Source of the DNA: a virus
Direction: 5' to 3' (one strand)
Length of the DNA: 23,645 nucleotides
IMG/VR virus record: IMGVR_UViG_3300007345_000284
Coordinates: 1 to 23,645 of that record
Shown here: positions 1,322 to 15,750 of the stretch, one piece after another
Numbering within the stretch: the stretch's first letter is position 1
How the letters are laid out: every line of letters begins with the position of its first letter
Made by a program: the position numbers and the translations under genes
The notes under the pieces: model-generated
The model's database searches: none
What the model saw: only the letters and a program-made list of their open reading frames with translations
What the model was told of the DNA's origin: nothing

Positions 1322-2338
1322 TTACGTTACCAGTCTCAAGCCTTGAGACGAGTCGCCTTCATCCGTGTCGCGCACATTGGTGGGAAACATCGGATTACCG
1401 GAAAGGATGTTGTTCCTTTCCACCCGCTCAGAGTCAACGCCGATGTAGTGCTCGGTGATCCTGGTGTCGGAGTGGCCAAGCATGGAACTGACGCGCATGA
1501 GGGCACCGCTGTGACCCTCGGCTCGTAGTGCGTTGAACCATGCGCGAGCACCACTGCGACGCAGGGTGTGTTCCCCCTCCCCGGGTGCATCTAGGTCAAG
1601 AGCGTCAAGGGCACGCTTGGCGGGGCGGTAGGGGTGGCTCATGGGCCGCTCAGGTCGCAACGGGGTTGGCCCATCCAGGAGTACCCGCTGCCCGTCGACC
1701 CACGTGAACTTCTGTGAGAACTTGGCTGGCACAAGGAACCAGTTGGGTTGCAGGTCGCCTTGATCCTGCCGGTACCACGACAGGTACCTGTCCAGTTCTT
1801 GCCGTAACTCTTGGCACATCGGGAGCGTGTCCTCGTCTTGTGTCTTGTGCCGGTAAATGTGCACGGTGGCATCAGTGAAGTTGACGTCCTGAATCTGTAG
1901 CGTGCGCAGTTCGCTGCCACGCAGGAACAGGAATAGTCCAAGTGACACAACTGCACGGTCACGTGGATGCTTGGCTGCATCCAACAGGGCAGGAAACTGC
2001 TCCACTGGTACGCGCATACGACTGGTCCGTGGGACCCTGACGTTGGACAGGTTCACGGTGGGATCGAAGTCCCGTGGGACCATGCGTACCCGGCGCATCC
2101 ACTGGAAGAACAGGCGCAGGTTGCTGATGTAGAGGTTTCTGGTCCTGGGTGACCAGTCATACGTTGATAGAAGAGTATCCATATCGGATGCGTTTAAACG
2201 CTTCACGGGCTTGTTGCCCCACACAGGTGCTGCTTTACGCAGCACTTGGGTTCGGTTCTTGATCGTGTTCGGTTTAAGACCAGACGCCTGCAAGTGATCC
2301 ATGTATTGGCTCATCGCGGCTGAGTAAGAGAAATGCAA
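1322..2338 (-). CDS. int: Tyrosine-family site-specific integrase
   Basis: A 338-aa tyrosine recombinase that would catalyse attP x attB recombination for prophage integration and excision. The N-terminal 100 residues form the SAM-like core-binding domain. The catalytic set is in order: R140 (FLRGSEL), K165, H257-x-x-R260 (HTLRRSG), H289 (LGHSD) and nucleophile Y298 (TEHYIG). The first in-frame start is TTG at 2338, preceded by GGAGG with 5-bp spacing (2344-2348 on the opposite strand), so I prefer it to the internal ATG at codon 9. A 14-bp repeat overlaps the start codon and another sits over a TGaTATGCT extended -10, so repressor control is likely. The tRNA-like attP lies immediately upstream. 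A GTTTAAAC site occurs at 2192-2199. Confidence 0.95.
   Translation of the reverse strand: MHFSYSAAMSQYMDHLQASGLKPNTIKNRTQVLRKAAPVWGNKPVKRLNASDMDTLLSTYDWSPRTRNLYISNLRLFFQWMRRVRMVPRDFDPTVNLSNVRVPRTSRMRVPVEQFPALLDAAKHPRDRAVVSLGLFLFLRGSELRTLQIQDVNFTDATVHIYRHKTQDEDTLPMCQELRQELDRYLSWYRQDQGDLQPNWFLVPAKFSQKFTWVDGQRVLLDGPTPLRPERPMSHPYRPAKRALDALDLDAPGEGEHTLRRSGARAWFNALRAEGHSGALMRVSSMLGHSDTRITEHYIGVDSERVERNNILSGNPMFPTNVRDTDEGDSSQGLRLVT
1333..1349. repeat. Perfect 8-bp inverted repeat in the 3' end of int
   Basis: GTCTCAAG and CTTGAGAC flank a single C. It lies within the last integrase codons, just upstream of the next gene's start. It could be an operator-like dyad or a small RNA hairpin affecting that start; no further evidence. 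Confidence 0.4.
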
Positions 2339-2521: not shown

Positions 2522-2543
2522 ATTTGCAACGTAGTGCTATTCT
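2522..2543 (+). promoter_or_regulatory. Repressor promoter with overlapping 14-bp repeat
   Basis: TGcTATTCT (2535-2543) is a good extended -10 sitting about 33 bp before the repressor ATG. The -35 position falls in the T-run of the terminator, so the extended -10 probably carries the promoter. A diverged - strand 14-bp repeat copy (2522-2535, matching TACGTTGCAA) abuts it, consistent with autoregulation. Confidence 0.5.
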
Positions 2544-2575
2544 ATTGTTACGGGGATCGCAATGAAGGAGGAACC

Positions 2576-3016
2576 ATGGCTCGGGCTAGGTTAGTTCCAA
2601 GCGATCAAGAACTCAAACGGTTACTTGAGCGTGGCTTTACCCACGACGACATAGTTGAACACGTATGGGACAAAGAACGTAAGCGAGTAAGTCGGTCTAC
2701 TGTGTCGGCCGCCATATCTAGGGCAGGACTATCTGAGACACAGAACCGGTACACCGACGAGATACCTTGGCGAGTCAGCGGCAAGCATCTGCGTGACTAT
2801 CAGCCCAGGATGCTGCGGCTCTTAGGCCGCAGGCGTGCGGGAGAAACGCTGAACGATTTGGAAGAGTCACGATTGGACAACTGGCTTCAGATGTTAGAGA
2901 ACGACAACGCGGTCGTCGCATACGATCCCGAAGTCGGATTCGGGTACGTCGACAGGGCACCCGAGGACCCGACGGATGTTCCGATCCATAAGACACACAT
3001 AAGGTTTATTGAGTAA
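2576..3016 (+). CDS. Immunity repressor, L5 Gp71-like
   Basis: A 146-aa DNA-binding protein. Residues about 8-50 form a helix-turn-helix ('LLERGFTHDDIVEHVW', then 'SRSTVSAAISRAG'). The C-terminal half aligns by eye with the mycobacteriophage L5 repressor Gp71: 'PW' then 'RMLRLLGRRRAG', 'WLQMLENDNAVVAYDP' and 'GFGYVDR' match L5's short 'PWD', 'WWKMLRDNDLVLEFDP' and 'GFRYVPR' blocks. L5 Gp71 maintains lysogeny by binding one operator at the early promoter and many dispersed asymmetric stoperators that halt elongation. ATG 2576 is chosen because AAGGAGG lies 5 bp upstream; an earlier in-frame start lacks this. The gene has its own promoter beside attP, between int and the early operon. Confidence 0.82.
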   Translation: MARARLVPSDQELKRLLERGFTHDDIVEHVWDKERKRVSRSTVSAAISRAGLSETQNRYTDEIPWRVSGKHLRDYQPRMLRLLGRRRAGETLNDLEESRLDNWLQMLENDNAVVAYDPEVGFGYVDRAPEDPTDVPIHKTHIRFIE

Positions 3017-8802: not shown

Positions 8803-8953
8803 GTGCCCCGTGTGCGCAGGAGCCGGGGCCACGCTCCCAACCACCACATCGCAGGTGAAAGGAGAAAATCCCTGCGTGGGTTGCGACTTTAGAAAGGAAC
8901 CGTCAGTTCCTGGTGAAAGGCAATGCGCCTCACCACTGCGTCCAGTTCCTTAG
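8801..8953 (+). other. Zinc-ribbon reading frame without a standard start
   Basis: Directly after the sigma-like gene, in the +1 frame, the DNA encodes two cysteine pairs (C-P-V-C and C-V-G-C, 27 residues apart) in about 50 codons ending at TAG 8951-8953. No ATG, GTG or TTG lies upstream of the first cysteine pair in this frame. The frame could be reached by a +1 shift at the sigma gene's TTC-TAA stop, or through a non-standard start. It overlaps the 3' end of the convergent gene by about 65 bp. It may be accidental. Confidence 0.3.
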
Positions 8954-9239
8954 CCTTAAGACCAGGTGTCGAACCGTCAGGCTTGCCTGGTCCGGTGACG
9001 ATGACGTCACCCACAATCGGGTGTCCACTGCGGCCTAAGCCCCACGCAATCTCGTTGATGGGTAGGCCCTTGGGGATTCCTTCATCATCGACCCACATCA
9101 GCAAGTCATCTTGAATGCGAACGACGTTGCACATGGATGCGACTTCATCCCGTAGCCGACGTGCTTGAGCCTTCTCGTCACGGGGCCAGTTGTGCACCGA
9201 CCACGTTCCGTCCGTCTTAATCTTGACGTACTTGAGCAT
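8889..9239 (-). CDS. DUF3846-like protein, 116 aa
   Basis: The pattern 'DDLLMWVDDEGIPKGLPIN' then 'GHPIVGDVIVTGPG' resembles the DUF3846 family of small proteins from actinobacteria and their phages. The function of that family is unknown to me. It is the last gene of the leftward operon and meets the rightward early operon tail to tail. AAAGGAA upstream and a one-base stop/start overlap (TGATG) with the preceding gene fix the start. A 6-bp hairpin AGGAAC/GTTCCT over the stop codon, followed by TTTCT, may terminate the leftward transcript. Confidence 0.75.
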   Translation of the reverse strand: MLKYVKIKTDGTWSVHNWPRDEKAQARRLRDEVASMCNVVRIQDDLLMWVDDEGIPKGLPINEIAWGLGRSGHPIVGDVIVTGPGKPDGSTPGLKAKELDAVVRRIAFHQELTVPF

Positions 9240-9415
9240 CAGTCATTTCCTTTCTGTTCGTCGAAGAACAGGCCACTCTCTGAGTACGGCTTGAGTAGGG
9301 CGCTCCCCTTCTCTCGCTTGCCTGAACCTGCATGGATGTATTCCTTGCCCCTCTTTGCTGCCCTGCGTTGAGCACGGTTCAAGGGAGGCTGCTTAACGAT
9401 CTTGTAGCGACTCAC
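9239..9415 (-). CDS. Small basic protein, 58 aa
   Basis: Starts with GTG at 9415 overlapping the preceding stop (GTGA) and ends overlapping the next ATG by one base. The protein is rich in Lys/Arg in its first two thirds ('LNRAQRRAAKRGKEY', 'SGKREKGS') and ends in an acidic tail. It is likely disordered and may bind nucleic acid or the ribosome. I do not recognise it. The tight coupling on both sides argues that it is real despite its length. Confidence 0.65.
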   Translation of the reverse strand: MSRYKIVKQPPLNRAQRRAAKRGKEYIHAGSGKREKGSALLKPYSESGLFFDEQKGND

Positions 9416-9555
9416 TTGTCCTCCTTGTCATGGCACTTGCACTTGCAAATGAGATACCCTGCGTTGCGCCCGTAGCAACGGTCATGGTCCGGCTCTTGAC
9501 CTACCCACTTCTTGCAGTACGCCGATACAAGTTCGTGCCGCTTCCAGTTCTGCAT
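9412..9555 (-). CDS. Small cysteine-rich protein, 47 aa
   Basis: ATG at 9555, stop overlapping the next gene's GTG. Four cysteines in two clusters (C14 and C27, then C37 and C39 with C41 and H42) could bind a metal ion. The ATG is immediately preceded by a 14-bp repeat (9556-9569) containing an extended -10 (TGaTAGGCT). No Shine-Dalgarno is evident, so a leaderless mRNA is possible. A second 14-bp repeat in the opposite orientation lies inside the gene at 9453-9466. Function unknown. Confidence 0.6.
   Translation of the reverse strand: MQNWKRHELVSAYCKKWVGQEPDHDRCYGRNAGYLICKCKCHDKEDK
9453..9466 (+). promoter_or_regulatory. 14-bp repeat inside the 47-aa gene
   Basis: Reads GATACCCTGCGTTG on the + strand, one mismatch to consensus, facing the leftward transcription of the host gene. 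Candidate stoperator. Confidence 0.55.
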
Positions 9556-9569
9556 GAATGCAGCCTATC
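9556..9569 (-). promoter_or_regulatory. 14-bp repeat at the start of the 47-aa gene
   Basis: Reads GATAGGCTGCATTC on the - strand. It overlaps the stop codon of the preceding gene and ends exactly at the next ATG. With the upstream GTG it forms an extended -10 (TGaTAGGCT), so it may be promoter and operator at once. Confidence 0.5.
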
Positions 9570-9975
9570 ACACTTGCCTGTCATCACCTTGCACCGGGTC
9601 CCATTCAATGTCGCCGCACGTGACGAACTCGCACGACGCAATGTCACCCTGTTCCCCTTCCTTGATGACCACGTACTCGTCGCTCAAGCACTGCGGACAG
9701 GTCAGGTTTAAACGCACTGGCTCGTATGCTCGTTCGATAAGTTCTTCCGCTGTCGGCTGGTTGTTGGCGGTGTCATCTACGGGAGTCGGCAGTCGCAGTA
9801 GCGACCCGCACGATGGGCACATCCCGTCTGTCAGGTACAGACCAGGGAGCCTTGTGTCGGGATCGAACACGACGCACGCATAGAACATCGTGTTCCCGCA
9901 CAAGCACTCATGGGTTGGTCCTGCCCACCGATGATCGTCAACAATCTTGCCCATTGAGAATGGGTGATCTAGCAC
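9568..9975 (-). CDS. Zinc-binding protein with three cysteine knuckles
   Basis: 135 aa if started at GTG 9975, which overlaps the upstream TAG and has GGGGGAC at suitable distance; ATG 9954 is an alternative. It carries 'CLCGNTMFYAC', 'CPSCGS' and 'CPQC', plus two later cysteines, enough for two zinc ribbons. The layout suggests two duplicated ribbons with an acidic linker ('TPVDDTANNQPTAEELIE'). Such multi-ribbon phage proteins often contact nucleic acid or RNA polymerase, but no specific role is evident. A GTTTAAAC repeat lies at 9706-9713. Confidence 0.7.
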   Translation of the reverse strand: MLDHPFSMGKIVDDHRWAGPTHECLCGNTMFYACVVFDPDTRLPGLYLTDGMCPSCGSLLRLPTPVDDTANNQPTAEELIERAYEPVRLNLTCPQCLSDEYVVIKEGEQGDIASCEFVTCGDIEWDPVQGDDRQV

Positions 9976-10445
9976 GTCCAACGTCCCCCGTACCAGTGGA
10001 ACTTCCCTGCCCACGGCCGATCGGCATGGTGCCCGTCAAGGGTGCGTCTAAACGCACTCGTCTGGAGCCACGGGTCCCACTTGTGCACTGATGTTGCTCG
10101 CAACTCACGCGCAAATGCTCGCTGCTCTTTCATGGATTCGGTAGAAAGATACGTTGCAATGTCACCACTGCGTACCATCCAATAGGTCGCTCCATTGGCC
10201 AATGGCTGGTTCATTTGGTATGCACCCAGGTACTTCCGTGTTGGATTGCGGGACCACCAGTGGCTGTTGCTCTCACGCATACGCACGCAATGCTCATACT
10301 GCACGTAGTAGTGCGGCAGCGGGTAGCCACTCGGGTCGGTTGAGGACTTATGGTTTGCACTGGCTTCGGGTGCCATGAACATGGACGCACCCAAGATTAC
10401 GGGGAGCACTACGGCTGCTACTCGGTCAGACCTACGTTTAAACAT
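9969..10445 (-). CDS. Exported lysozyme/transglycosylase-like protein
   Basis: 158 aa. The N-terminus has basic residues followed by a hydrophobic stretch and a signal-peptidase-like end ('AAVVLPVILGASMFM', then 'APEASA'). The mature part has 'CVRMRESNSHWW' and 'YLGAYQMNQ', recalling the Glu-containing catalytic helix and glycine-rich strand of actinobacterial transglycosylase/Rpf-like domains. It probably acts on host peptidoglycan outside the membrane. The second ATG (10445) is preferred because GAGGAAGG lies about 8 bp upstream, versus 2 bp for the first at 10451. A GTTTAAAC repeat overlaps this start codon. A perfect 14-bp repeat lies inside at 10148-10161. Confidence 0.65.
   Translation of the reverse strand: MFKRRSDRVAAVVLPVILGASMFMAPEASANHKSSTDPSGYPLPHYYVQYEHCVRMRESNSHWWSRNPTRKYLGAYQMNQPLANGATYWMVRSGDIATYLSTESMKEQRAFARELRATSVHKWDPWLQTSAFRRTLDGHHADRPWAGKFHWYGGRWTC
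10148..10161 (+). promoter_or_regulatory. Perfect 14-bp repeat copy
   Basis: GATACGTTGCAATG on the + strand, within the lysozyme-like gene and opposing its transcription. No intergenic promoter is nearby, so if functional it acts as a roadblock rather than as a promoter operator. Confidence 0.6.
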
Positions 10446-10740
10446 CGGCATTACCTTCCTCGTCGTGCTTGTTTATTTGCAGGATCAGGGCGTTTGCGTT
10501 CTTGCTGGCTGCAAAGACCACGCCCTTGTCGATTGCTTTCTTGGCTGCGTTCTTGGTAATGAATGGGCCGTGCAGGTGGACGCATACACCTGGGTCAACG
10601 ACCAGCACGTACCAGTCGGTCCTCTCGGCACGAAGTCGATCTACTGTTCGTAAGACGTCAACCGCCAGGTCGTTGGCACTAGGCGCGGGACTGTCCAGGA
10701 TCGTGGCTATGGCGTCACGTTCTTTCGGCCGGATAGCCAT
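10438..10740 (-). CDS. Hypothetical protein, 100 aa
   Basis: ATG 10740 overlaps the WhiB-like gene's TAA by one base, and its 3' end overlaps the next gene by a few bases. The N-terminal half is helical ('IRPKERDAIATILDS', 'AVDVLRTVDRLRAER'). The C-terminal half reads as a small alpha/beta unit ('DWYVLVVDPGVCVHLHGPFI', then 'KNAAKKAIDKG') similar in style to small phage proteins that pair 'GPFATK' with a helix. Function unknown; coupling to the WhiB gene suggests a joint regulatory role. Confidence 0.7.
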   Translation of the reverse strand: MAIRPKERDAIATILDSPAPSANDLAVDVLRTVDRLRAERTDWYVLVVDPGVCVHLHGPFITKNAAKKAIDKGVVFAASKNANALILQINKHDEEGNADV

Positions 10741-11375
10741 TAACTGACCTCGTTAAGTTTCTTGGTGGCGAGCCGTGCTTTCGCACGCTGCTGTTCTTTC
10801 GCCTCGGGGGATTCAAACCGGGCGTAGTAGCACTGCGAACAGTTGATGCTGTAAACGTGGCGGTACGGGTCATCTACTGGCTGTGCGACTCGCACAAAGT
10901 CGTAGTCCGGCTTGAGGTCGTGACCGTTCTTGCACTTCTTAGGTGACTGGTGACGCCAGTCCTCGTTTAAACCAAACCAGTGGGTGTTCGTAGGTTCGAC
11001 GACGCTGACCTTGAGTCGTCGTCGTATGTCTGCTCTTTCCTCCGCTGTTGTGCCTGCCCAGAAACCGAACTCTTCTTGGTGCACTGACCAGTTGAGGCAC
11101 TGCTTGAGGATCGGGCACGTGCTACACATCCCCTGCATCTCGGCTAGTTGCCTGTTGGTGGGGTACTCGGTGAAGAACAGGTCGTACTCCCCCGCGCACG
11201 CCGCATGTTCGTAGTCGATGGTCGGCATCAACGCTGCAAGGAGCCAGCCGTAGCGTTCGTGTAAACGCCACGACCAGCGCCTCGGCCAGACGCCCAGGTG
11301 ATTGGGTTTCGTTGCTCCCGGTGGTTGCTCAAACGCGATCCGGTCATGTGACTTGCGTCCCAAGGCTGCTCCCAA
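10740..11375 (-). CDS. whiB: WhiB-family regulator fused to a second cysteine module
   Basis: Up to 211 aa. The WhiB domain has the four cluster-binding cysteines C60, C84, C87 and C93 (C-x23-C-x2-C-x5-C) followed by GFWAG, the turn equivalent to the family's GVWGG. WhiB proteins bind 4Fe-4S and act with the primary sigma factor. A C-terminal extension of about 75 residues adds 'KKCKNGHDL' and 'INCSQCYYAR', a C-x2-GH ... C-x2-C unit like those of phage HNH or zinc-ribbon proteins. The start is uncertain: TTG 11375 opens the frame, TTG 11363 has GGGAG upstream, and ATG 11228 would give a minimal WhiB. A 14-bp repeat lies 8 bp upstream of the longest start. Confidence 0.85.
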   Translation of the reverse strand: MGAALGRKSHDRIAFEQPPGATKPNHLGVWPRRWSWRLHERYGWLLAALMPTIDYEHAACAGEYDLFFTEYPTNRQLAEMQGMCSTCPILKQCLNWSVHQEEFGFWAGTTAEERADIRRRLKVSVVEPTNTHWFGLNEDWRHQSPKKCKNGHDLKPDYDFVRVAQPVDDPYRHVYSINCSQCYYARFESPEAKEQQRAKARLATKKLNEVS

Positions 11376-11383
11376 CTTAGATG

Positions 11384-11397
11384 GATACGTTGCAATC
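11384..11397 (+). promoter_or_regulatory. 14-bp repeat between GGCT-like and WhiB genes
   Basis: Perfect consensus match GATACGTTGCAATC on the + strand, in the 26-bp gap between the stop of the cyclotransferase-like gene and the WhiB-like start. It faces leftward transcription. Candidate stoperator. Confidence 0.65.
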
Positions 11398-11401
11398 AGA
11401 T

Positions 11402-11833
11402 CTAACGACCGAACTTGGTCCAGTCGCCATGGCTAATGGACAGGAATCCAACCTGCGGATCGGGGAACACAAACGCAAGCGCGTCGATGCTCGCAATCTC
11501 CGGTGCCAGGTCGTCCAACTGGACGCTCACCCACTCGGTCACGTACCCGGCACGCTCTTCCATGCCACGCACCTGCGCGAGCACCTGGGGGTCACTGATC
11601 CAGGCCACCTCACCCACGACACTCTTCTGCCAACTGTCCTGGGAGCGCACCATCCATGGATACGCTGCATTGAGGTCGTTTACACGCAACTCATACTGCG
11701 CGACAGAAGGATCGGTCTGCGCTGGCACCAGGTCGATGCCGTCCAGGAAGTGCGGGTTCAACGGCTCCCCCGTACGCAACGTGCCGTACACAAACAACGG
11801 CACCGGTCGATTCCTACTCGGTGTGATTCTCAC
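11402..11833 (-). CDS. Gamma-glutamylcyclotransferase-like (AIG2/GGCT fold) protein
   Basis: 143 aa beginning with GTG, preceded by GAAAGGGG. 'LFVYGTLRTGE' (13-23) is the diagnostic P-loop-like glycine motif of the GGCT/AIG2 fold. 'MEERAGY' (91-97) holds the acidic residue expected for catalysis, and 'VVGEVAWIS' (72-80) is the conserved central strand. Family members cleave gamma-glutamyl amides to give 5-oxoproline; BtrG does this in butirosin synthesis. In the same operon are an amidoligase and a class II glutamine amidotransferase, which suggests it removes or tailors a gamma-glutamyl group. Overlaps the upstream gene by 20 bp. Confidence 0.82.
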   Translation of the reverse strand: MRITPSRNRPVPLFVYGTLRTGEPLNPHFLDGIDLVPAQTDPSVAQYELRVNDLNAAYPWMVRSQDSWQKSVVGEVAWISDPQVLAQVRGMEERAGYVTEWVSVQLDDLAPEIASIDALAFVFPDPQVGFLSISHGDWTKFGR

Positions 11834-12077
11834 TGCTACCCCTTTCTACGTCGGCTATTCCTAGGTCGTGCATGGCGGTCACGAATGCGTCGTCGTCCAT
11901 CCATTCGTGGATCGACAGAGGATCGCTACCGTCTACCAGGTGGTACCGCCATGCGATCGCACGCTTCACGTCAGCGCGTGCATCCTTGGTCCACTGAGCC
12001 TTGGCCAGCAGGCGAAGCACGTGGGACGCATCACGCCCCACGTACTCGCTGCCACTGGCAAACGTCAGTCGAATCAT
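11814..12077 (-). CDS. Hypothetical protein, 87 aa
   Basis: The ATG at 12077 lies one base after a 14-bp repeat that forms a TGgTACCCT extended -10 (12079-12092); no ribosome site is seen. The product begins 'MIRLTFASGSEYVGRDASHV', then a helix with 'LLAKAQWTKDARADVKRAIA', and an acidic C-terminal region with 'SIHEWMDDDAFVTAMHDLG'. No family recognised. Its 3' end overlaps the cyclotransferase-like gene, so the two are translated together. Confidence 0.7.
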   Translation of the reverse strand: MIRLTFASGSEYVGRDASHVLRLLAKAQWTKDARADVKRAIAWRYHLVDGSDPLSIHEWMDDDAFVTAMHDLGIADVERGSSENHTE

Positions 12078-12078
12078 G

Positions 12079-12092
12079 GATAGCAGGGTACC
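12079..12092 (-). promoter_or_regulatory. 14-bp repeat upstream of the 87-aa gene
   Basis: Reads GGTACCCTGCTATC on the - strand, about two mismatches. It ends one base from the ATG and overlaps TGgTACCCT, an extended -10-like element. The arrangement mirrors that at 9556-9569. Confidence 0.45.
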
Positions 12093-12112
12093 ACACCTGC
12101 GCAACAGACTCA

Positions 12113-13135
12113 TTACTGCGACTCGCCCCACATCAACTGTTCGTCAGCCTCTGCCATCATCTCAGCGACTGCCTCCCGGTCATCCCACTCCCACTCAGAG
12201 GGAGACACGGGCGTGACCTCGGGAGCATTAGTGTAAACACCATTGGCGAAGTCATACCCTGCAATGACGTGCGGCTTAGCAGTGCGACGCGCCTTGCCCT
12301 TGCCCTTGGACTTGGCCTTGCCCTTTGCCCTGGACTTGGCAGCACCGGTACCCAGGGTCCAGCGGTCGGACTCTTTGGACTTGGGACGTGATGCGTTTAC
12401 ACGCACCCGTGGTGCAGCAGGCACCGGCTCGAACAACTCGCTCGAAACGATGACGCCCTGTTGAATCTGCAAGTACGTACCCTCGGGTAGGTCTTGCGTC
12501 CACTCCAACTTCACACCTGCCGCATCGACTGCTTCCTTGAGAATGTGCATCGTTGATCCGTAGACGAACGATCCATTCTTGGTCTGCCCCACCGCTAACG
12601 GTGAGCCATGACCACGTGCCAGGTGCAGGGTTTCCACACTGTCCCGGGTGTCGTACCAGGCCAGAGCAATGCGACCGTGCAGCATCTCTAACGCATCGGT
12701 CACCGGCAGGTCACCGTGTGCCAGCAGTGCGAAGATTGCTTCACTGTCGACCTCACCATGACGGTCGACGTCATCGCCCAGCATGGCGAACAGGTCGTCG
12801 TCGTGCCCGTAGTCCAGGGTCCCGTTGTGGGTGCCAATAATCGTGCCCTGTTTGATCGGGTGATTATTGAGCGGGTTAGCGGGTGAACCCTTGGTCGCAT
12901 ACCGGGTATGCAGGATGCGCGACGTCGCCTCGGACTTGTGGTGCCCGTGCTTGACCCACGTCGATGCGGGCACTGCGGCTTTCTTACTGCGCACTTTGCC
13001 GTTACTGAGCCACGCTGCACCACTGGCGTGCTTGCCACGTGCCTCACATTCCATGAGCAGATACCCGGCCAACAGGTCGGGGTCGATCTGCCCGTGATCC
13101 TTGGGGTTCAAGCAGAACCCACCGATTCCACACAT
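12113..13135 (-). CDS. Class II glutamine amidotransferase with basic tail
   Basis: 340 aa from ATG 13135 (AAAGGACGG upstream), so that Cys2 becomes the N-terminal nucleophile after Met removal (MCGIGGF), as in Gn-AT-II enzymes. Other family motifs: R33-G34 (EARGKHASG), H76-T-R78-Y-A-T, N91-H92-P93 (LNNHPI), N104-G105 (THNGTL) and D130-S-E132. These bind glutamine and release ammonia. The amidotransferase domain ends near residue 230. A Lys/Arg/Gly/Ala-rich stretch (about 260-285) follows, then an acidic tail, so no synthase domain is fused. Ammonia or glutamyl transfer partners are probably the amidoligase and GGCT-like proteins of this operon. Confidence 0.88.
   Translation of the reverse strand: MCGIGGFCLNPKDHGQIDPDLLAGYLLMECEARGKHASGAAWLSNGKVRSKKAAVPASTWVKHGHHKSEATSRILHTRYATKGSPANPLNNHPIKQGTIIGTHNGTLDYGHDDDLFAMLGDDVDRHGEVDSEAIFALLAHGDLPVTDALEMLHGRIALAWYDTRDSVETLHLARGHGSPLAVGQTKNGSFVYGSTMHILKEAVDAAGVKLEWTQDLPEGTYLQIQQGVIVSSELFEPVPAAPRVRVNASRPKSKESDRWTLGTGAAKSRAKGKAKSKGKGKARRTAKPHVIAGYDFANGVYTNAPEVTPVSPSEWEWDDREAVAEMMAEADEQLMWGESQ
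12253..12266 (+). promoter_or_regulatory. 14-bp repeat inside the amidotransferase gene
   Basis: CATACCCTGCAATG on the + strand, one mismatch, opposing transcription. GTGTAAAC variants of the palindromic motif flank it at 12231 and 12395. Confidence 0.5.
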
Positions 13136-13166
13136 AACTACCGTCCTTTCGTTTCTTACCGATAAT

Positions 13167-13180
13167 GAATGCAGTGTATC
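13167..13180 (-). promoter_or_regulatory. 14-bp repeat and probable promoter of the amidotransferase gene
   Basis: GATACACTGCATTC on the - strand. With the preceding GTG it forms TGaTACACT, a good extended -10. The transcript would begin about 20-25 bp before the AAAGGACGG ribosome site. No clear -35. Confidence 0.5.
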
Positions 13181-13248
13181 ACACCTGTATGTCAGGCATG
13201 TTGTAAGCAGAGATGTTGACCAACGTCGGATAACGACGGACGAGGAAA

Positions 13249-13278
13249 CAGAGGGTGCGTTTAAACGCGCACCCTCTG
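13249..13278. terminator. Perfect 11-bp hairpin with GTTTAAAC in the loop
   Basis: CAGAGGGTGCG (13249-13259) pairs perfectly with CGCACCCTCTG (13268-13278) around the loop TTTAAACG. It covers the stop codon of the 215-aa gene on the - strand. Only TTT follows on that strand, so it may stabilise an mRNA 3' end, attenuate transcription, or form a cruciform presenting the repeat. Confidence 0.55.
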
Positions 13279-13908
13279 CTCCTGCCACCAGCCACTTCCC
13301 AGGTGACGGACCTCCACCCGTTGCACCTCATACGTCGGTGCCGGTGGTGTCTCGGTCCGTTGCTCCGGCTCCCACCACAACACGTCCAGGACCCACGAAC
13401 CACCGTTGCGGTCGGGTCGGTGCGTCACTGCGGGACGTAACCGTTGCGGGTGCCGGTCGGGATGCCAAGTGCGGTCCAGAATCGACACGGCGTTTAAACC
13501 CATGTGACCACTCGGCCGCCACTCGTACCGCTCCTGGAAACGACGCATCACCTCGTTCTGAAAACGGTGCACGATCTCCGACACGGTGTTGAGGTTGCGC
13601 GTTTCTTCGCTCCCGCTCCGCATTCTCCCGCTGTGAGGTTGGAACATCCACGACACTTGCCAATAGGGTTGGCGGTCATGCGACACGCGACGTGTCACCG
13701 ACACGTCGGCCCAGCGTGGCCTTTCCATCGCCCACCACCGACGGTTCCGATCCCACACCGAATAACCGTCAAGTGCCTCGGGAATCACCAACTGCCACCG
13801 TTGATACCGGGTGAACGAATCACCCTGCACGTCAACATTCCGGTCCTCTGCCCGATGCCACCGGAGATGGTCGGCGGCCACAATGTCCTGCCCGATACGC
13901 CTAGGCAT
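13261..13908 (-). CDS. Hypothetical protein, 215 aa
   Basis: A Trp/Arg-rich protein ('RRWWAMERPRWADV', 'YWQVSWMFQPHSG', 'WVLDVLWWEPEQR') with alternating strands and one central helix ('NTVSEIVHRFQNEVMRRFQ'). No signal peptide, membrane segment or known catalytic motif. RBS AAGGGGAG precedes ATG 13908, and a GTTTAAAC repeat fills the exact gap between ribosome site and start. It lies between the amidoligase and amidotransferase genes, so it may act in the same pathway, for example as a substrate or adaptor; this is inference from position. Confidence 0.7.
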   Translation of the reverse strand: MPRRIGQDIVAADHLRWHRAEDRNVDVQGDSFTRYQRWQLVIPEALDGYSVWDRNRRWWAMERPRWADVSVTRRVSHDRQPYWQVSWMFQPHSGRMRSGSEETRNLNTVSEIVHRFQNEVMRRFQERYEWRPSGHMGLNAVSILDRTWHPDRHPQRLRPAVTHRPDRNGGSWVLDVLWWEPEQRTETPPAPTYEVQRVEVRHLGSGWWQEQRVRV

Positions 13909-13916
13909 GTTTAAAC
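13909..13916. promoter_or_regulatory. GTTTAAAC between ribosome site and start codon
   Basis: The palindrome abuts the ATG at 13908 and follows AAGGGGAG on the - strand. It is the clearest case where the motif occupies a possible control position instead of the interior of a gene. Confidence 0.5.
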
Positions 13917-14000
13917 ACTCCCCTTCGTTGTCGATCTAGTCACCGATCTGGCAACCATTCGGGAACCCCGACCCGGTGAGCCGGGGTCCCCTGATGGTGG

Positions 14001-14885
14001 TCAGACGCGCTGTAACGAACGCAGACGCGCCAGCCGGTCCGTGGTGGCCGGTGCCACCGGGTCGGTCGGTGCAGGTGCAGACGGTGCCGGTGATCCGGTC
14101 CCCCGACGCTCCGCCCATCGACGGTGATCCTCTGAGAGGAACCCCATGTCGACCAACCAGGACAGGTAGTCGCCATTCGTCGTGCGATACGTTGCATTCG
14201 ACTCCGCGTGCAGACGGGTGGCACGGATGTATCCGACCCATCCCATGATCTTGCGGAAGTTGATCGAACCGTCACGTTGCCGGACCTCAAGCGTTCCTCG
14301 CTCAAGGAACCATTGCGTATTGACCGCGTAGCCGTGAGACGACGCCACGCCCGTCAGTGCCCGGGCGTCACCCGATTGGGCGGCCGTTACGAACCGATCC
14401 CATGCGGACCCCGACAGGACCGCGCACCATTCGGAATACCGGCCGCCACGTTCCCGACCGGACCGAACCAGGGTGTCGGTCACGTTCTGGCGAGAGGACC
14501 AGATACGTCCCCACCTGGCGAGAGCATCCTGCCCGATGGATGCCATTTCCATGTGCACGTGCAAACCGGCCGTGCGACGTGCACTCTGTGGCCGGAGGAC
14601 CCGTGCGCCAATCTCATTCAGCACCCGGGTGACCGTCGCCAGGTCCTCAAGATGACGCGGGTCATCCCACGTCAGGACCGGTGACACCACCTCAACTTTC
14701 CACGGAAGGCGGCCATTCGTCGGAATGGTCACGTCATCTTTCACCTGCCATTTCGTGTAGTCCCGACCGGAGTACGAAGCGGGAATCGCAGGGATGTTTA
14801 AACCCGCTGCATTCAACGCATCTGCCACCTGCGAATGGCGCAACGGTGACGCCATTTCCAATTCGATCCCAAACGTGAGCGCCAT
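14001..14885 (-). CDS. Amidoligase (COOH-NH2 ligase, glutamine-synthetase fold)
   Basis: 294 aa. Motifs of the Amidoligase_2 family are clear: E8-x-E10 (FGIELEMA), 'KVEVVSPVL' (63-71), 'GLHVHME' (107-113, metal/ATP-site HxH), 'RERGGRYSEW' (about 144-153) and 'GTLEVRQRDGSINFRKIMGW' (197-216). The family is predicted to couple ATP hydrolysis to amide-bond formation between carboxylates and amines, by analogy with glutamine synthetase and GCS. GGAGGTGG lies upstream of ATG 14885, 2 bp beyond the previous stop. Substrates are unknown. Co-occurrence with class II GATase and GGCT-like genes supports a peptide or amide conjugation pathway. The last 45 residues are a Pro/Ala-rich tail. Confidence 0.88.
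   Translation of the reverse strand: MALTFGIELEMASPLRHSQVADALNAAGLNIPAIPASYSGRDYTKWQVKDDVTIPTNGRLPWKVEVVSPVLTWDDPRHLEDLATVTRVLNEIGARVLRPQSARRTAGLHVHMEMASIGQDALARWGRIWSSRQNVTDTLVRSGRERGGRYSEWCAVLSGSAWDRFVTAAQSGDARALTGVASSHGYAVNTQWFLERGTLEVRQRDGSINFRKIMGWVGYIRATRLHAESNATYRTTNGDYLSWLVDMGFLSEDHRRWAERRGTGSPAPSAPAPTDPVAPATTDRLARLRSLQRV
14186..14199 (+). promoter_or_regulatory. Perfect 14-bp repeat inside the amidoligase gene
   Basis: GATACGTTGCATTC on the + strand, facing leftward transcription. Candidate stoperator. Confidence 0.6.
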
Positions 14886-14887
14886 GA

Positions 14888-15454
14888 CTAAGCCACCTCC
14901 GTCAGACGGAGCGAGCACGGAATGCCGGTCCCATTCGGATGATCCCGGCCGCACAGAGGTGCGCCAGATTCGATCTGAGACGACGACAGGCGAACCCGCA
15001 CATCGTCATGGATGCTGCACGACACCAAACGCATCCGACTCCCGGTCTGTCGACGTCGACCCGATTGGATCGCTTCGGCCGGGTAGTCCCCGACCTCCGC
15101 CACGTAGTCATCCACCTGCCGGAAGATGCCTTCGGCGCGAGCGTCCGTCGGGTTCACTGTCCACCCGTCGACGATCCATCCACGTGACCGGAGGAACCCT
15201 GCCCTACGGTCCGTCAATCGACCTGTGCCGACGATCCGTACTCTGTCGATCAGGTACGCCAGGACCGTCGCCACCTCTGCCGACTCTGCCAACAAAGGCG
15301 ACACAAGCAGCACAGTGCGCCCATCTTCGTCACGGCCGATATCGGCCACACGTCCCGACCTGGCACGCTGCGCCGGGTAGGACGGAAGAACCGCGAGCGG
15401 CTCTCCATTCGTCATGCGGCTCGCCAAACCGGCAAGCCATTGTTCCCGATTCAT
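14888..15454 (-). CDS. Degenerate SprT-like (metallopeptidase-fold) protein lacking HExxH
   Basis: 188 aa from ATG 15454 (AAAGGGG upstream). The N-terminal 'MNREQWLAGLA', the strand 'VLLVSPLL', and the C-terminal 'GDYPAEAIQSGRRRQTGSRM' plus 'IESGAPLC' match the layout of the SprT-like putative metallopeptidases of actinobacteria and their phages. In that family the residues after 'SPLL' form a helix with HELVHA. Here the equivalent helix reads 'VLAYLIDRVRIVG', so both zinc-binding His and the catalytic Glu are gone. The C-terminal zinc knuckle is also only partly kept. It is therefore likely a non-catalytic binding protein. An in-frame upstream ATG at 15559 with GGAGG is an alternative start, but the family begins at the Met chosen here. 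Confidence 0.6.
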   Translation of the reverse strand: MNREQWLAGLASRMTNGEPLAVLPSYPAQRARSGRVADIGRDEDGRTVLLVSPLLAESAEVATVLAYLIDRVRIVGTGRLTDRRAGFLRSRGWIVDGWTVNPTDARAEGIFRQVDDYVAEVGDYPAEAIQSGRRRQTGSRMRLVSCSIHDDVRVRLSSSQIESGAPLCGRDHPNGTGIPCSLRLTEVA

Positions 15455-15750
15455 CGGGTCCCCTTTCGTTGTGTCGGACCACCTGTCCGATTCCCACCAT
15501 TGCAAGGTACACCATGCCCGATGTTCGGCACGTTGAAACGCACACATTCGCCCGATCATTTCTCCCACCTCCGATCCCGCCAGGTGGGTGCACTGACTGT
15601 CCTACCGGCCGTTCCTGGCATTTCGTGGCACATGGTGGGTGGCCGGGTCGATTCGTGTCGGAGGTGGTCGGGATGGGTGGGGAACTTGAGCGGCAATCGA
15701 CCGGTGTCGGGATCGAAAGGATGGAAGGAGAGGTGGTGTAAACGATCGAC
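15455..15750. other. Leader of the leftward operon, no convincing gene
   Basis: This GC-rich segment has long overlapping frames on both strands, but none with a recognisable protein. It contains the 14-bp repeat at 15498-15511 and a GTGTAAAC variant at 15736-15743. It probably holds the promoter of the leftward operon. Confidence 0.5.
15498..15511 (-). promoter_or_regulatory. 14-bp repeat upstream of the leftward operon
   Basis: TGTACCTTGCAATG on the - strand, two mismatches, about 45 bp before the first gene of the leftward operon. TACCTT could serve as a -10. Likely a control point for the whole leftward operon. Confidence 0.45.

Follow-up and report, generated by a model that had tools for sequence, protein, structure and literature searches.

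Phage amidoligase cassettes have reportedly been noted since 2009, by Iyer et al., and bacteria possess peptidoglycan amidotransferases of their own that are fed by glutamine, AsnB/LtsA among them. A second such system, MurT/GatD, carries out glutamine-fed amidation of cell-wall stem peptides (PMC3267633). We propose both bacterial systems as parallels to the locus described below, by analogy only: the synthase folds differ, and we claim no homology between the ligases. Among phages, gene sets of the LUZ24/PaP3 and RIO-1/phiEco32 types have been called a 'peptidoglycan modification cassette' (PMC5498523, PMC11945000, PMC3890496), and related cassettes have been predicted to target peptidoglycan, with superinfection exclusion or lysis tuning suggested (PMC5498523, PMC11945000, PMC10580990). 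In the literature examined we found no experiment showing the product of a published phage cassette. These sets bring together an Amidoligase_2 enzyme, a class II glutamine amidotransferase (GATase) and a gamma-glutamyl(amine) cyclotransferase (GGCT), to which they add an ATP-grasp ligase, present in PaP3, and a COOH-NH2 ligase.

The same three enzymes are encoded, close together and co-directional as in those cassettes, on the minus strand of the window analysed here, which takes in the entire viral record (IMG/VR record IMGVR_UViG_3300007345_000284; 23,645 bases). The extra ATP-grasp ligase of the full seven-gene podovirus form was not found: since no RimK-family ATP-grasp gene was detected in the window or in four relatives (the records are fragments), we file the cassette as the three-enzyme form. 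A COOH-NH2_lig search gave no match, but neither did its control. The nearest published arrangement is that of Arthrobacter phages of cluster AL (Laroyevirus: Laroye, Salgado and Waltz) and of Ottawa and Kharcho, in which the three genes are adjacent and co-directional and the annotation of the stretch lists no ATP-grasp gene; the cluster AL phages had been noted to carry these genes (PMC5513430). Their GATases are 39-41% identical to that of the window and their amidoligases only about 25%, and Ottawa gene 67 belongs to the family of the window's 87-aa protein. Unlike that of the window, the Arthrobacter block has GGCT first and is not a leftward island next to a terminase. Bacillus phage 035JT001, the best phage match to the window's amidoligase (32%), has GGCT about 1 kb away and an 87-aa-family gene directly after the ligase; in contrast to the window, the annotation of the stretch examined includes no GATase. 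Since the three-enzyme kind is already described in the literature, the cassette is less novel than a sequence-only reading of this DNA had implied. What is added here is a survey, in which the three-enzyme form recurs in actinophages and is spread over very different phages, and a small conserved 87-aa partner whose gene lies beside amide ligases in many unrelated viruses.

Near-identical copies of the window are present in IMG/VR (L008-L011). A tyrosine integrase (1322-2338, minus strand) and a homologue of immunity repressors of Streptomyces phages (2534-3016, plus strand) indicate that the phage is probably temperate, and the 45% identity of its terminase to Streptomyces phage terminases makes an actinobacterial host likely; a terminase-based host search in bacterial genomes gave no match. 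Replication genes and a terminase-portal module run rightward. The cassette lies within a leftward island (8889-15568) together with a WhiB regulator and small genes, a DUF3846 protein (8889-9239, minus strand) forming the downstream end. We rejected the cassette as a defence system, as a PADLOC search gave no match; an Rfam search for RNA elements was likewise negative.

The three enzymes and their proposed chemistry

Profile searches confirmed the families and the positions that the sequence-only reading had assigned to all three enzymes, each above its Pfam cut-off and with PHROGs assignments in agreement. In the case of the amidoligase (14001-14885, minus strand; 294 aa), the match was to Amidoligase_2 (PF12224; E=2.2e-18, 67.5 bits vs a cut-off of 22). 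An AlphaFold model (pLDDT 82.9) has a glutamine-synthetase-type fold, and its best PDB matches were glutamine synthetase, 1tt4 (a predicted glutathione synthase), Dop and PafA, with Foldseek values for glutamine synthetase of E=5.5e-5, prob 1.00 and a TM-score of about 0.4. As TM-scores are at that level, the modelled likeness to the closest solved structures is one of common fold, not close kinship. The acidic metal-site residues expected of this fold are conserved: E8, E10, D51, E65, H109, H111, R144, N189, E200 and R202 are invariant in an alignment of 46 sequences, and the two N-terminal Glu residues, the HxH and the ExR are kept almost without exception among 166 homologues. A search of PDB profiles using the aligned ligases was discarded, having returned only spurious matches, the best of which fell on N-terminal extension columns of some rows. 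ATP-dependent amide formation is the predicted activity of this enzyme.

The GATase (12113-13135, minus strand; 340 aa) matched GATase_6 (E=9.3e-15, 55.2 bits vs a cut-off of 27) and, in a PDB profile search, the GlmS glutaminase. Its N-terminus reads MCGIGG, placing Cys2 at the N-terminus once Met is removed, and the catalytic Cys, the Arg and Thr substrate residues, the Asn-Gly oxyanion hole and the Asp are each kept in 111 of 111 homologues. As had been read from the sequence, there is no synthase domain and only a basic, Lys/Ala-rich tail beyond the glutaminase; the enzyme therefore needs a partner. The GGCT/AIG2-fold protein (11402-11833, minus strand; 143 aa, GTG start) matched GGACT (E=2e-12, 48.2 bits vs a cut-off of 22.8) and, among PDB profiles, YtfP and AIG2-like proteins. 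Across 73 homologues the Tyr of its YG(T/S)L loop is kept in 72, and the Gly and the catalytic Glu in all.

These features suggest a division of labour in which the GATase would release ammonia from glutamine and the amidoligase would activate a carboxylate with ATP and join ammonia or another amine to it, yielding an amide. The 87-aa protein would act within the ligase complex as a small subunit or adaptor, and GGCT would take the gamma-glutamyl group off an amine, so as to edit or clear gamma-glutamyl products. The best overall explanation, to which we give an even chance, is a phage amidotransferase cassette acting likeliest on cell-wall stem peptides. Within it, we regard the enzyme type, a split amidotransferase, as quite likely; that the target is the cell wall is a tentative call, falling slightly short of even. 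The likeliest substrate would be the D-Glu/diaminopimelate portion of the host's stem peptides or of the precursors of these peptides. In an infected cell or a lysogen the wall might be altered so as, for instance, to limit superinfection or to tune lysis. If peptidoglycan is the target, the cassette would let phages edit the walls of the cells that they infect or lysogenize. Computation here establishes the families, the fold of the ligase, the conservation of the active sites and the linkage of the genes; the chemistry as a pathway, the complex, the substrate and the benefit are inferred from these. In its general idea, that the products are amide or gamma-glutamyl conjugates on envelope, protein or DNA, the sequence-only reading agrees with the published prediction.

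Co-occurrence of the enzymes and the 87-aa protein

Viral contigs were scanned separately with the ligase and GATase alignments, and the best 80 loci of each scan were analysed. An amidoligase was present in 73 of the 80 GATase-found loci, on the same strand in all 73 and either adjacent or with one small gene between, the gaps between open frames being at most 919 bases. After dereplication the proportions were 28 of 31 loci at 95% identity and 18 of 20 at 80%. The amidoligase-found loci had GGCT nearby in 53 of 80 and GATase in 20, always on the same strand, and among whole records GGCT was present in 14 of 20. Set against a base rate that is only rough (14 ligase, 288 GATase and 11 GGCT matches in a phage collection of 50,697 records), this co-occurrence of sequence families is far above chance, and the association that the first reading had left to a neighbourhood survey is borne out. 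It is very unlikely that unrelated accessory genes lie together by happenstance, an explanation that would fit the variable spacing, the variable slot occupied by a 215-aa protein and a hairpin dividing the region (see below), but that is largely refuted by the survey, given same-strand adjacency in 73/73 amidoligase-GATase and 53/53 amidoligase-GGCT pairs across very divergent phages and a gene order kept in the relatives L019 and L100.

The linkage is looser for the set as a whole. GGCT is absent from many amidoligase-GATase loci and GATase from most amidoligase-GGCT loci, so the three enzymes need not make one pathway. In 38 of the best 80 amidoligase loci GGCT is found without GATase, and GGACT-type enzymes act on small gamma-glutamyl-amines; together with the match of the ligase model to the predicted glutathione synthase 1tt4, this would suit enzymes that make or recycle a free gamma-glutamyl or amide metabolite (in nitrogen salvage, or as a polyamine or glutathione-like compound) and have no envelope target. 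We consider this rather unlikely, the literature's prediction of peptidoglycan (PMC5498523) counting weakly against it.

The 87-aa open reading frame (12077-11814, minus strand) overlaps the start of GGCT by 20 nt, and its product is a conserved amidoligase-associated protein that we propose as a fourth component. A profile seeded with the window and L100 sequences and run for four iterations gathered 66 members, 47 of them distinct, mostly encoded directly after an amidoligase or GATase. Iteration may drift, and a separate test was made by scanning viral contigs with two subfamily alignments (A12 and A13) without reference to the ligase. A ligase and/or GATase lay directly upstream of the family gene in 27/27 loci, many of them in phages already found, so that the test is not fully independent; the ligase itself was present in 26, and the 27th contig begins inside GATase. 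Conversely, a family member was detected in 39 of the best 80 ligase loci, about half having no detectable member. No member matches Pfam, a PDB search gave no significant match, and 3 of 38 match PHROGs, one of these without a function. The alignment has one invariant Arg, a nearly invariant Phe and Gly, and a variable C-terminus.

These observations bear on whether the small protein is itself modified or carried. The sequence-only reading had suggested the 87-aa and 215-aa proteins as substrate or carrier. Conservation of the 87-aa protein as a partner fits part of that suggestion; homologues of the 215-aa protein are confined to its own clade, and no carrier-type C-terminus is conserved in the 87-aa family. 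The C-terminus of Pup is GGE or GGQ. A few 87-aa family members do end in GGE or GE, but most do not, the window's own member ends in NHTE, and no conserved C-terminal residue was found among the 47, a pattern that makes a carrier of the Pup or LysW kind less likely. The presence of Dop and PafA among the closest folds of the ligase model, and of a conserved small protein beside the ligase, would be compatible with host or virion proteins being amidated or gamma-glutamylated, by analogy with PafA/Dop action on Pup and proteins. We judge such protein modification to be improbable, given the unconserved C-terminus and the lack of any sequence match of the ligase to PafA or Dop in family searches. 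The role that we consider likeliest for the 87-aa protein is that of a small subunit or adaptor in the ligase complex. More broadly, we would put at evens the proposal that phage amidoligases work with an obligate, as yet unnamed partner of about 85 aa (subunit, adaptor or acceptor), encoded directly after the ligase or its GATase across phages and prophages whose hosts differ widely. If true, phage amidoligase cassettes would be amidotransferases of several subunits, not ligases acting alone. The enzymes together with the 87-aa partner are the right protein set for biochemists to purify together.

Neighbouring genes and transcription units

The larger block around the cassette is also partly conserved. 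Its order (226-aa protein, ligase, variable gene, GATase, 87-aa protein, GGCT, WhiB, 100-aa protein, transglycosylase-like protein) is largely kept in L019 and L100, the L100 block starting near GATase, where the contig ends. Directly upstream of the ligase, the 226-aa protein (14888-15568, minus strand) has a homologue (E=2.6e-11) that is identically placed in L019, a distant relative. The variable slot between ligase and GATase holds in the window the 215-aa protein (13261-13908, minus strand), which has no family match and no homologue outside the window's near-identical clade, and which we accordingly rejected as a conserved partner. On the other side, a WhiB-like regulator (10740-11375, minus strand; Whib, E=1.8e-12) adjoins GGCT, and in L019 and L100 it does so or sits one small gene away. 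It is followed by a 100-aa protein (10438-10740, minus strand), whose homologues in L100 and L019 are placed likewise.

The last of these neighbours is a putative secreted transglycosylase-like protein of the Rpf/SLT type (9969-10451, minus strand), called from an N-terminus that is hydrophobic by eye and from its positional counterparts, which match SLT in L019 and Transglycosylas in L100 (both E=0.006, below cut-off). A shared pattern, C..RES..G.YQ, adds to the call. The window copy alone had no match, including no PDB sequence match, and its structure model (pLDDT 36) was too poor to use. The position of this gene after the cassette in three divergent relatives, sub-threshold call though it is, favours a cell-wall target and counts weakly against a free metabolite; the gene may, on the other hand, have to do with lysis and be unconnected with the cassette.

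That the cassette forms one leftward operon, as first read, holds in so far as the three enzyme genes all point the same way and the start of GGCT lies within the end of the 87-aa gene. A single unit is doubtful, because a strong hairpin and a promoter-like element precede GATase. The hairpin (about 13250-13275, minus strand), with the palindrome GTTTAAAC in its loop, lies between the 215-aa gene and GATase, and the fold of 13228-13290 (63 nt) has an energy of -32.4 kcal/mol (z=-5.0). The gap before GATase is 125 nt; simple scans of it reported no sigma-70 promoter and no terminator, and a pattern listing gave an extended -10-like element, TGTGATACACT (13140-13185, more narrowly near 13160-13185, minus strand). 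Such an element recurs before the 87-aa gene (TGTGGTACCCT, near 12097) and near 9575, copies that the simple scans did not flag either. We infer that the region is probably transcribed as at least two units. Promoter-like elements of the GTGTGATA type stand just before three genes (at 13181, 12097 and 9575, minus strand), at two of which the start codon falls within about 15 bases of the element, which would suggest leaderless transcripts.

An over-represented palindrome and the DNA as a target

The 8-base palindrome GTTTAAAC occurs at 16 sites in the window (841 to 23213) vs 0.15 expected, an excess of about 100-fold, and in 57 GATase loci (within L101-L173) of a related phage lineage there are 1,388 copies in 486 kb, or roughly one every 350 bases. 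Variants with one mismatch stay close to background in these motif-rich relatives, which have relatives of terminase, portal, primase and sigma factor in common with the window. No copy is present in about 20 GATase loci, the majority of them with an amidoligase as well, and in the stretch examined of such motif-free loci none of the four relatives was found. As motif and cassette thus occur independently, we rejected a link between them.

In some phages the bases carry attached amino acids or amines, and the sequence-only reading had listed DNA among the possible targets. That suggestion did not survive: modification of phage DNA by the cassette's enzymes is extremely unlikely and was rejected, neither the window nor the relatives that were searched (the records are fragments) having yielded a thymidylate-synthase- or hydroxymethylase-like gene, and the palindrome being independent of the cassette.

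Among 297 sampled actinobacterial genomes, a sample that the true hosts may lie outside, the GTTTAAAC pair pattern occurred in only two, once each, and none looked enriched; the motif is also absent from Streptomyces phage Hydra, a carrier of the repressor homologue. A bacterial-genome scan for three close GTTTAAAC sites (L176-L255) returned loci of which many, among the matches listed, were regularly spaced in the manner of CRISPR arrays. Within coding sequence, the motif is read in both of the codon frames that contain no stop, frame 1 (Leu-Asn) and frame 2 (Phe-Lys) occurring 414 and 358 times in the 57 loci and 11 and 1 times in the window. A variant, GTTTACAC/GTGTAAAC, is found nine times in the window (4488, 6980, 8045, 8398, 11259, 11678, 12231, 12395 and 15736), in contrast to the near-background level of such variants in the motif-rich relatives. 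The over-representation of GTTTAAAC is reminiscent of the HIP1 palindrome of cyanobacteria.
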